A stretch of 64,000 nt of DNA from positions 1-64,000 of the forward strand of contig JAJUGJ010000009.1 in the NCBI GenBank assembly GCA_029268225.1, written 5' to 3'. Numbering within the stretch: position 1 is the stretch's first letter; the number at the start of each line of letters is the position of its first letter. The position numbers and the translations under genes are program-made. Positions 58,448 through 61,574 of this stretch are shown one piece after another. The notes beneath the pieces are model-generated. The model saw nothing but the letters and a program-made list of their open reading frames with translations. It did no database searches and was not told the DNA's origin. Origin of the DNA: Burkholderiales bacterium. GTDB taxonomy: Bacteria; Pseudomonadota; Gammaproteobacteria; Burkholderiales; Burkholderiaceae_C.

Positions 58448-59155
58448 TCAGACGGAGCCAACCGAATTGGCTTTGATTTGACGTCGCTGTTGGCGTACGC
58501 CAATGAAAGCCAACCCCATGCTGAAGAGCAGGTAGCTGGCCGGTTCTGGCACCGCTGAAATGACAGAACCAGTCAAAAACATCCGATACCTGTTGGGCTC
58601 ATCGCCTTCAATGCCCCATTGCGGATAGCTGGAGTCATTGATGGCAAACACAGTACCACTGGAGGTCTCACCCTCGTCAGGCTGAAGCAACGTCAATGTA
58701 CTTTTGCCTTGTGCGCCGAACAAGCCTGACCCAAAAATCAGACCATAATTTCCTGGCAAAAGATTGACATTGATCGATGCAAGATAGTCTGCACCAGAGG
58801 TAGGCGTAAAGACCGTATACGCAATGACGTTTTCCAGATACGTCAGATCACCAACGGGCAGGTCATTACCATCAAGATTGACGATTGCACCGAACACTGA
58901 TCCTGCAGCGCCTGTGGTGCCGTCAAAACCAAATGCCCCGCCAAAATCATTGAAGTGCCCGCCCAAGGCGTCCACGCGCGTTTCTTCCTGAATGTTGAAA
59001 GAGACGCCAATAAACTGATCTTTGCTGATCAAGGAACCACAGCAACTGCTGTCGTCGAACGGGCCTGTTGCCGACTCAAAAAATATATTTTCGCTTGCAC
59101 CTGCCGACGCCCCCAAACCCATCATGAACAAAACGGTGAAAAGTAATTTTTTCAC
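58448..59155 (-). CDS. PEP-CTERM sorting-domain protein
   Basis: 235 residues; GTG 59155 is preceded by GGGAGG four nt upstream, which decides the start. A signal peptide (KKLLFTVLFMMGLGASAGA) begins it. The C-terminus is a PEP-CTERM tripartite signal: VPEPASYLLFSMGLAFIGVR followed by basic residues. The body is beta-rich with Gly/Asp/Asn. Such proteins are cleaved and anchored by an exosortase, usually in strains that make exopolysaccharide; no exosortase is in the window. An 18-residue tail follows the basic cluster, a little longer than usual. Confidence 0.9.
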   Translation of the reverse strand: MKKLLFTVLFMMGLGASAGASENIFFESATGPFDDSSCCGSLISKDQFIGVSFNIQEETRVDALGGHFNDFGGAFGFDGTTGAAGSVFGAIVNLDGNDLPVGDLTYLENVIAYTVFTPTSGADYLASINVNLLPGNYGLIFGSGLFGAQGKSTLTLLQPDEGETSSGTVFAINDSSYPQWGIEGDEPNRYRMFLTGSVISAVPEPASYLLFSMGLAFIGVRQQRRQIKANSVGSV

Positions 59156-59437: not shown

Positions 59438-60649
59438 TTATTGGCTCTCAATTGCCGCGCACAGTTGCTGACTCATGACCTCTGCCAATATGCTCAACCC
59501 CGTCTGAATCTCCTGCTCGGTGCTGTTGAGCCTTGGCATGAAGCGCAAGCAGTGCGGCCGCGCGGCGTTCACCAGCAAGCCTTGTTCGCGGCAAGACTGC
59601 ACCACCTGGGCCGCGTTGTCGCTGCCAAGTTCCAGCGCCCACAACAAGCCCGCCCCGCGAACCTCACCCAGGCCGTACCGCTGCGCCAGCTCCAGCAAGC
59701 CTTCTTGCAACTGCTGCCCTCGCTCACGCACCTGCGACAAGAAGTCCGGCTGACTCAACTCCTGCAATACGGCCAAGCTGACCGCGCACATCAGCGGATT
59801 GCCGGCATAGGTGCCGCCCTGGTCGCCATGCTCGAACACGCTGCAATGCTGCTGTGCCAACACCGCAGACATGGGCACGCCGCCTCCCAAACCTTTGCCC
59901 AAGGTCAGGATGTCGGGTTTCACGCCGTAATGCTGAAAGCCAAACAGCTCCCCCAGGCGGCCGCAACCGGTCTGCACCTCATCAAAAATCAGCAGCAGGC
60001 CACGCTCGTCGCACAACTGCCGTAGCGCCTGCAAAAACGCCTGCGAGGCTGGCCGCACCCCGGCTTCGCCCTGCACCGGCTCCAGCATGATGGCCACCGT
60101 GCGGTCGCTCAACACCCGGTGAACGGAATCCAGGTCGTTCAGCGTGGCCTTGGCAAAGCCCGGCATATTGGGCGGAAACAAGGCGTCCCACCCCGCTTTG
60201 CCGCTGGCCGCCATGGTCGCCAGGTTCCGTCCGTGAAACGCGTTGTCGAAGGTGATGATCTCGAACGCCGCACGCCCCCCTGTTCGCCCCCACTTGCGGG
60301 CCAGCTTGATCGCCCCTTCGTTGGCCTCCGCCCCCGTGCTGCCAAAGAAGACCTGATCGAACCCACTGAGCGCACACAGGCGCTCTGCCAACGCCAGCGA
60401 CGGCAGGTTGTACAGCGCTGGGCTGGGCGTGAGCAGCTGGGTGGACTGTGACTGCAGCGCCTGGGTGATGACCGCTGGACAATGCCCCAGTGCATTGACC
60501 GCCCAGCCTTGCAACCAGTCCAGGTAGCGTCGACCAGCCTGGTCCCACAGCCACGCGCCTTCGCCGCGCACGAAGACCTCGGCGGGGCGTGCGGTGACAG
60601 ACATCAGATGCTGGGACTGCTGTGGAGGTTGTGGCTGAACGGTGTTCAT
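59438..60649 (-). CDS. argD: Acetylornithine aminotransferase (class III PLP)
   Basis: 403 residues from ATG 60649; a longer start at 60691 would overlap the attenuator hairpin. Class III aminotransferase: VFFGSTGAEANEGAIKLARKW, LIFDEVQTGCGRLGELF, PLP-binding Lys in LTLGKGLGGGVP and GGTYAGNPLMCAV. It matches acetylornithine aminotransferases, converting N-acetylglutamate semialdehyde to N-acetylornithine in arginine synthesis. The related succinylornithine and 4-aminobutyrate enzymes cannot be wholly excluded. An arginine-codon-rich leader with terminator upstream supports the arginine assignment. Confidence 0.9.
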   Translation of the reverse strand: MNTVQPQPPQQSQHLMSVTARPAEVFVRGEGAWLWDQAGRRYLDWLQGWAVNALGHCPAVITQALQSQSTQLLTPSPALYNLPSLALAERLCALSGFDQVFFGSTGAEANEGAIKLARKWGRTGGRAAFEIITFDNAFHGRNLATMAASGKAGWDALFPPNMPGFAKATLNDLDSVHRVLSDRTVAIMLEPVQGEAGVRPASQAFLQALRQLCDERGLLLIFDEVQTGCGRLGELFGFQHYGVKPDILTLGKGLGGGVPMSAVLAQQHCSVFEHGDQGGTYAGNPLMCAVSLAVLQELSQPDFLSQVRERGQQLQEGLLELAQRYGLGEVRGAGLLWALELGSDNAAQVVQSCREQGLLVNAARPHCLRFMPRLNSTEQEIQTGLSILAEVMSQQLCAAIESQ

Positions 60650-60682
60650 GGTCAAGGGCCTTTCATGCGGAGGGACAAAGAA

Positions 60683-60710
60683 AAAGGCCACGGGGTGAGC
60701 CGTGGCCTTT
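60683..60710 (-). terminator. Attenuator-type terminator upstream of argD
   Basis: An 11-bp perfect stem AAAGGCCACGG / CCGTGGCCTTT with loop CTCACC on the minus strand, followed by TTTTTCTTT. It lies 23 nt after the leader ORF stop and 33 nt before the argD ATG. The left arm can also pair with CCGTGTCCT (60764-60772) inside the leader ORF (8 of 9 positions), giving an alternative antiterminator. Confidence 0.8.
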
Positions 60711-60733
60711 GGGGGAGGAAATCGGTGCGTCGT

Positions 60734-60832
60734 TTACATCTTCACCATTTCAACCTCGCGCGCAGGACACGGCAACGAGCAACGGGCTCGTGCGGCTCGG
60801 GCTGCGGCGATGTGGAGGGAAATGTGATGCAT
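60734..60832 (-). CDS. Leader peptide of argD, rich in Arg codons (putative attenuator ORF)
   Basis: 32 codons from ATG 60832 to TAA 60734; an in-frame ATG at 60841 would add three residues. The middle reads AAARAARARC, with codons CGA, CGA and CGT for Arg12, Arg15 and Arg17, and CGC for Arg25. CGA is rare in the neighbouring GC-rich genes. The C-terminal part is LPCPAREVEMVKM. It is followed by a strong terminator and then argD. A ribosome stalled at these Arg codons would leave the LPCP-coding segment free to pair with the terminator's left arm. No strong ribosome-binding site is visible, which is the main doubt. Confidence 0.55.
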   Translation of the reverse strand: MHHISLHIAAARAARARCSLPCPAREVEMVKM

Positions 60833-60953
60833 GTCGAACATCGTACAAGAAAGGCTGCTGCGATGCGACAGGTTCAGGGTCAATCAGAGTGCGAAGGTCT
60901 CCCAACCGATGTTGGATTCAAGCTGATTTCCGAGGGGTGAAGCATGCCATCTG

Positions 60954-61574
60954 CTACGAGGGGCGATACATGCGGAACCGCTGCTCATCGCCAATCGAGA
61001 AATAGTCTGCTGGGCCTCCCCCGCGCAGAATCACCCCGGAATTGGCCGTGTCGAACACCCCGTCCTTGAGCAGCCGACGATCGATGTAGACCTTGACCAC
61101 CTCCCCGAGCACGAGCCAAGTCGGAATCGACTCATGACCAGCGGTACGCAACTGGTGGATGTCGGTCAATCGACATTCGAAAGTCACCGGGCTCTGGGCG
61201 ACTCTGGGCACCCGGATCAACTCCGAATCCACGGCTTCCAACCCTGCCAGCTCGAACTCATTGACCTCCGGCGGGACAGCGGCACAGGTCTGGTTCATCG
61301 CATCGGCCAGCTCACGCGTGGCCAGGTTCCACGCGAACTCACCAGTCTCCTGAATATTGCGCACCGTGTCTTTCCAACCGATGCTGGAGAAGCCGATGAT
61401 AGGCGGGACGTAGTTGAAGGCGTTGAAGAAGCTGTAGGGCGCCAGATTCACCTGACCGCTCGCGCTCCTGCTCGAAATCCACCCGATGGGTCGCGGACCG
61501 ACGATGGCGTTGAAGGGATCATGCTGCAGTCCGTGCCCGTTACGGGGCTCGTAGGTATGCGAGTCAGTTTTCAT
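60954..61574 (-). CDS. Flavin reductase family protein (FMN-binding split barrel)
   Basis: 206 residues. Family features: AIVGPRPIGWISSRSASGQVNLAPYSFFNAFNY, WNLATRELADAMN and CRLTDIHQL. These proteins bind FMN and reduce free flavin or act with two-component monooxygenases. No monooxygenase is adjacent, so the role is open. It lies upstream of the argD leader on the same strand, and read-through into the leader is possible. Confidence 0.9.
   Translation of the reverse strand: MKTDSHTYEPRNGHGLQHDPFNAIVGPRPIGWISSRSASGQVNLAPYSFFNAFNYVPPIIGFSSIGWKDTVRNIQETGEFAWNLATRELADAMNQTCAAVPPEVNEFELAGLEAVDSELIRVPRVAQSPVTFECRLTDIHQLRTAGHESIPTWLVLGEVVKVYIDRRLLKDGVFDTANSGVILRGGGPADYFSIGDEQRFRMYRPS

Follow-up and report, generated by a model that had tools for sequence, protein, structure and literature searches.

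The acetylornithine transaminase gene argD of this Burkholderiales bacterium is preceded by a short arginine-rich open reading frame (ORF) and an intrinsic terminator, and the question raised by this arrangement is whether transcription of argD is governed by translation of the ORF. The original prediction was one of classical attenuation, with mutually exclusive hairpins and induction of argD by low levels of charged tRNA-Arg. We analyzed the locus within the window (the whole stretch of DNA, 64,000 nucleotides in length) and compared it with its counterparts across the order. The relevant features are:

59438..60649, minus strand: argD, acetylornithine transaminase (NCBIfam NF002985, 586.8 bits, above the cut-off of 568)
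60659..60663, minus strand: AAAGG, probable ribosome-binding site of argD
60683..60693, minus strand: terminator right arm (segment 4), CCGTGGCCTTT, from the terminator scan and the fold
60700..60710, minus strand: terminator left arm (segment 3), AAAGGCCACGG; the stretch that pairs in the antiterminator helix is CACGGC, 60704-60699
60734..60832, minus strand: leader ORF of 32 codons, MHHISLHIAAARAARARCSLPCPAREVEMVKM; ATG at 60832-60830, stop ending at 60734
60758..60760, minus strand: fourth Arg codon, CGC; Arg in 15 of 18 aligned leaders
60764..60773, minus strand: predicted 5' segment of the antiterminator (segment 2), GCCGTGTCCT; GCCGTG/CACGGC pairing, 2:3 in the stalled, truncated fold
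60772..60792, minus strand: protector hairpin 1:2, CACGAGC with GCTCGTTGC, present in the ribosome-free fold
60782..60799, minus strand: Arg codon cluster CGA GCC GCA CGA GCC CGT, proposed stall site, with Arg conserved in the aligned leaders; individual Arg codons CGA 60799-60797, CGA 60790-60788 and CGT 60784-60782
60840..60845, minus strand: -10-like box TACGAT, 7 nt 5' of the leader AUG; possible leaderless transcript

The ORF with its four Arg codons and the perfect 11-bp terminator before argD were thus found on the minus strand as predicted, and the predicted distances, 23 nt from the leader stop to the stem and 33 nt from the stem to the argD ATG (60649), are correct. The terminator reads AAAGGCCACGG-CTCACC-CCGTGGCCTTT (60710-60683), comprises 11 perfect pairs followed by a U-rich stretch, and is the sole terminator-like site in 60400-61100, where shuffled sequences yield a mean of 0.5. 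The match between CCGTGTCCT (60772-60764) and the terminator right arm, identical at 8 of 9 positions, was likewise reproduced. A scan of 60400-61100 for a sigma-70-type promoter with a -35 element found none. Family searches indicated that the three neighbors of the putatively attenuated argD in the window are not arginine genes; a PEP-CTERM domain protein is encoded downstream of argD on the same strand (58448-59155, minus strand).

With the 5' part of the transcript masked and arm 4 absent, as expected behind a stalled ribosome, the minimum-energy fold pairs GCCGUG.UCC with the terminator left arm; the energy of this fold is by itself not unusual (z -1.51, 16 of 200 shuffles as good). When arm 4 is included under the same masking, the terminator 3:4 becomes the minimum-energy fold (z -3.11, 0 of 200 shuffles as good), and the ribosome-free fold contains both hairpin 1:2 and the terminator (z -4.19, 0 of 200). 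As modeled, these three folds are the three states of classical attenuation, and the claim that stalling would favor the alternative pairing holds to the extent that the fold expected under such a mechanism was obtained for each of its states (ribosome-free, stalled and terminated), the stalled one with the shuffle frequency given above. The elements themselves, their conservation, the alternative folds and the link to argD were all observed in silico, and from them we infer a mechanism in which a transcript, probably starting at the leader AUG, would be translated while being made. If Arg-tRNA is ample, the ribosome would pass the Arg codons and segment 2, the terminator would form, and transcription would stop before argD. 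If Arg-tRNA is short, the ribosome would stall at the CGA codons, covering segment 1, and GCCGTG would be left free to pair with the terminator left arm, allowing RNA polymerase to read into argD. Without translation, hairpin 1:2 would sequester segment 2, resulting in termination by default.

A scan with the ArgD protein returned 70 loci, and the same element was recognized in 13 of the 19 upstream regions that were read (L002-L011 and L013-L015, among L002-L020), in records that include Ideonella, Thiomonas, Polaromonas and Rhodoferax; locus L012 bears an Arg-rich leader of a different type. Within the genus, a full argD orthologue with at least 79% identity is present in 3 of 42 genomes (the window genome, G011 and G030, G011 being apparently the same genome as locus L002), all three with a leader before argD, and a fourth genome (G023) has a fragment of argD only. 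A covariance model trained on argD leaders was run gene-blind over 299 family genomes, and among the 11 candidates scored per genome it gave 23 matches, of which the 8 top-scoring all lie upstream of argD; the other 15, all at or below 34.4 bits, were set aside as terminator-only or chance matches. The model added seven further family genomes, one of which (L102) duplicates L007.

In the resulting alignment (A3, 21 leaders), the antiterminator helix GCCGTG/CACGGC is paired in 126 of 126 cells (21 leaders by 6 pairs), with the consensus GCYGTG for segment 2 and CACGGY for the terminator arm. Sliding the columns by 1-3 positions lowers pairing to 18-50%, and a letter-shuffle control is also 100% paired (500/500) and cannot discriminate. 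Covariation had been proposed as a check: the pairing is kept in 21 of 21 leaders, whereas the five changes within the helix are all one-sided and G-U-preserving, with no two-sided compensatory change in A3. In each of the first 18 rows of A3 all three clustered codons specify Arg, the first spelled CGA or AGA, the second CGA only, and the third CGT, CGC or CGA, with AGA replacing one CGA in one leader; invariably Arg and synonymously variable in spelling, these codons point to a coding constraint on arginine. Thus, when conservation of the ORF and of the alternative pairing was checked, the prediction was not refuted, segment 2 and the terminator recurring in 21 leaders and the Arg core in 18. 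The CCG and TG in the neighborhood of the Arg codons are invariant, as the helix needs. Conservation of the peptide LPCPAR had also been proposed as a check; its PC residues are conserved, and in the aligned sequences they seem to follow from the RNA helix GCCGTG rather than to mark a peptide motif. In L107-L109 the helix and terminator are kept and the short Arg-containing leaders differ. The protector hairpin 1:2, intact in the window fold, appears by eye to be broken in some relatives, such as L008 and L074. The terminator loop CTCAC could also be matched by GTGAG, but this second candidate complement was discarded by eye, the loop being CTGAC in part of the L003-type group.

Because the covariance search scored 11 candidates per genome, divergent leaders were sought via the ArgD protein. 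An orthologue (E ≤1e-95) was found in at least 32 of 299 family genomes and at least 64 of 399 order genomes, counts that are lower bounds since 6 (family) and 4 (order) candidates were scored per genome and orthologues may be missed. The regions covered represent 60 of 65 order places and 27 of 31 family places other than the window. A qualifying terminator lies close before argD in 58 of the 115 upstream regions examined, the window included, and is absent in 57, among them 19 of the 27 family regions. Removal of three duplicates (L034=L172, L026=L193, L102=L007) left 55 loci, and exclusion by eye of L166 and L204, in which the top ORF (score 2 and 1, respectively) does not qualify as an Arg leader, left the 53 used in the pairing, -10 box and arm-swap analyses; L108, L109, L145, L147 and L150 were kept although their score is also 2. 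An Arg-rich leader with a terminator precedes 30 of 60 order-level orthologues, spanning 11 families besides that of the window (in 27 of the 30 the leader has ≥3 Arg within 6 codons), and 8 of 27 family-level regions. Many of these order-wide leaders are unrelated in sequence, e.g. MLSLQTNLRRRRSLLP, MNTAIIRRRARTLLPTGVPRG (from an inner ATG), MNMIRTLLRRRSPLPLPGKPCA and MRSPTPLLSLRRRARRHR. The same pipeline applied to 37 more distant ArgD loci (29-55% identical; not named as Burkholderiales, several with generic records) gave 8 terminators and 1 Arg cluster. This last locus (L033), from a Myxococcales lichen metagenome-assembled genome, encodes an ArgD 55% identical, preceded by a terminator and a leader of its own, MSLRANRRFARRAATCGGREMP; the arrangement may stem from gene transfer, convergence or mis-binning. 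Two further leaders (L129 and L132) end in RRRARRHR before the stop, and the hairpin that comes next has a poor U-run; L129 reads by eye as an Arg leader but was left uncounted, its hairpin not satisfying the U-run rule.

Clusters of at least 3 Arg in 6 codons occur in 48 of 55 loci, against a mean of 11.35 and a maximum of 19 in 100 dinucleotide shuffles, and runs of at least 3 Arg in 21 of 55, against a mean of 2.41 and a maximum of 7. With the ribosome assumed to stand at the first clustered Arg codon, the terminator left arm pairs upstream with a mean probability of 0.69 over the 53 loci, compared with 0.53 (sd 0.02) in shuffles, falling below the shuffle mean in 7 of 53 (L161, L173, L174, L179, L186, L187 and L192). 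The window's own 2:3 pairing is not above shuffles, a fraction of 0.30 of 60 shuffles being as high (0.17 by duplex energy). Taken over the loci together, leader segments match their own terminator arm better than swapped arms, with 0 of 5000 permutations as good both in the 53 loci and in the 32 outside the window's clade (outside A3), counts that overstate independence since the loci are related.

The start of the transcript also follows a recurrent pattern. In 30 of 53 loci a -10-like hexamer (score ≥7) is found 5-12 nt 5' of the leader start (mean 3.13, maximum 8 under a plain letter shuffle; the start of L179 was shifted by hand to an inner ATG), and in 28 of these 30 the two are 6-8 nt apart. 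Shine-Dalgarno-like motifs do not rise above background (4 of 53 leaders, 3.63 expected). This combination suggests that in many loci the leader mRNA is probably leaderless, a class of transcript described as rare in Proteobacteria (PMC3896937, in part).

Several other explanations of these observations were weighed. An Arg-rich ORF could arise by chance in GC-rich DNA beside an ordinary terminator, and shuffled sequences do give at least 3 Arg in 6 codons at 11.35 of 55 loci on average; the 48 observed, their recurrence across families, and the clustering, pairing, helix, arm-swap and codon conservation results already contradict this reading, whose probability we regard as next to negligible. 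It is also very improbable that an independent small RNA ends at the terminator, with argD served by its own promoter and the ORF incidental. An Rfam search at permissive thresholds gave four matches at the locus, all to small-RNA families and none to the T-box; three of these overlap the terminator, as a small RNA would predict, but all fall below the gathering score (best 25.7 bits versus 41), argD begins just 33 nt beyond the terminator, helix 2:3 and the Arg-codon ORF show conservation, and leader segments match the arm of their own clade.

Two further alternatives accept the leader as a regulator and differ on what it senses. Leaders such as fungal AAP and SpeFL act as arrest peptides, and here too a nascent chain could bind arginine or a related metabolite and stall the ribosome, with no codon-based sensing of tRNA. 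The core RAARAR is indeed conserved as amino acids in the window's clade, but the leaders of other families share, by eye, Arg runs alone and no peptide motif, and a peptide sensor would not need their strong preference for CGA, so that we consider arrest by the peptide improbable. That same preference is what would be expected if what the leader sensed were the slowness with which tRNA-Arg(ICG) decodes CGA, or a general slowdown of translation under antibiotic or stress, instead of arginine: CGA makes up 117 of 322 leader Arg codons, as against 13 of 404 Arg codons in 14 argD genes, and in 44 of 53 loci the Arg cluster starts with it. The original description of CGA as rare is correct in that the codon is uncommon, but it is not absent nearby, with 15 of 100 Arg codons in seven hand-picked ORFs of the window. 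On the other side, CGC (101) and CGT (68) are also heavily used, AGA once stands for one CGA, and the 8 best gene-blind matches all precede argD, albeit with a model trained on argD leaders; the gene downstream of the order-wide leaders carries no weight here, since these were found via ArgD. Sensing of slow decoding is thus about as improbable as an arrest peptide. One tRNA, tRNA-Arg(ICG), decodes CGA, CGC and CGT, and it is a reasonable inference from this shared decoding that the leader senses the charging of that isoacceptor.

Control of arginine genes by ArgR, taken in the original prediction as the usual arrangement, does not appear to be the default here. A search with TIGR01529, which covers ArgR as distinct from the AraC-type ArgR of Pseudomonas, gave no hit among 150 family genomes or among 250 order genomes, the window's included, with positive controls in 9 of 14 named genomes; the regulator is reported to be conserved in many gammaproteobacterial groups and absent in other classes (PMC5343134, in part). 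The window genome has a second ArgD (L217, G000:C22:13347-14531), about 38% identical to that of the window, with no Arg leader upstream and with argF, confirmed by family, beginning 8 nt after it, and the effect of the attenuator on arginine supply may for this reason be partial. Of the 22 genomes examined for it, 14 encode a relative of this second ArgD no more than about 1.5 kb from argF. The pipeline gave no Arg leaders before argF or argDF operons except for one overlapping ORF (L232), which was judged to be due to chance; in L242, what looked like an Arg ORF 5' of argF was discarded by eye, as its ATG overlaps a -10-like TATGAT. A GC-rich hairpin with a U-run stands directly 5' of the argF start codon in L236, L240 and L242 (the first two by eye), and is possibly another 5' regulatory element. 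Downstream of argD in the sampled relatives, no arginine genes were noticed by eye other than an argC-like ORF two genes beyond argD in L210.

Taken together, we consider it very probable that argD is subject to ribosome-mediated attenuation of the trp/his type, based on arginine codons and sensing charged tRNA-Arg, and that this form of control is widespread in the order but patchy; in silico, the prediction of classical attenuation before argD is supported. If true, this would go some way toward accounting for how one or more steps of arginine synthesis are adjusted in bacteria that apparently lack ArgR, and such sensors would become a natural setting in which to test why CGA codons and leaderless starts are favored. 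A more comprehensive picture is quite possible, though we would lean slightly against accepting it in full: that in an order in which ArgR was not found, argD came under arginine-codon attenuators on leaderless transcripts, CGA-tuned to the charging of tRNA-Arg(ICG), with the leader rebuilt many times while its logic, an Arg run and a segment 2 matching the terminator arm, was kept.

Among the known systems, trpL is a ribosome-mediated attenuator of the trp type, and the groups of Gelfand and Lyubetsky reportedly conducted earlier comparative surveys of attenuators. Among open PMC papers, screened by title or the beginning of the abstract, we found no arginine-codon attenuator of argD or any other arginine-synthesis gene, and the word arginine is absent from the main text of a wide attenuator survey (PMC2965389). 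The Pseudomonas carAB leader (PMC4997734, in part) resembles the present case in serving an arginine/pyrimidine enzyme through a leader stem-loop with proposed attenuation, but its stem-loop is for pyrimidine control and arginine acts through ArgR. Repression by ArgR likewise depends on arginine, with argD as a taxon-specific target (PMC5343134, in part), whereas ArgR is a DNA-binding protein, and one found in none of the 250 genomes of this order. The speF orf34 leader of Salmonella is a short ORF whose Arg codons sense arginine via alternative RNA folds, but it differs in having ornithine decarboxylase as its target and in employing Rho and RNase G without an intrinsic terminator (PMC6386406, in part); its core peptide with RR (HIRR..., DUF2618) is absent from the leader peptides read by eye. 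The closest likeness is to the trp/his/leu-type attenuators (his: PMC3896937, in part), which also combine a short codon-rich leader ORF, exclusive hairpins, an intrinsic terminator and a biosynthetic gene. Of five features of trp/his-type attenuators that were checked, four are found here in silico: 1) a short ORF in which codons for the regulated amino acid are clustered; 2) an intrinsic terminator separating the leader ORF from the gene, in 58 of the 115 orthologue regions; 3) a predicted antiterminator that uses the terminator left arm and would be exposed by a stalled ribosome, in the window alone not above shuffles; and 4) a downstream gene, argD, in the pathway of the same amino acid. 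The fifth, a protector hairpin 1:2 in the untranslated state, is predicted in the window fold and appears by eye broken in relatives such as L008 and L074. Unlike those systems, the attenuator described here uses arginine codons, apparently has its AUG as the first codon of the transcript, and carries segment 2 inside the ORF.
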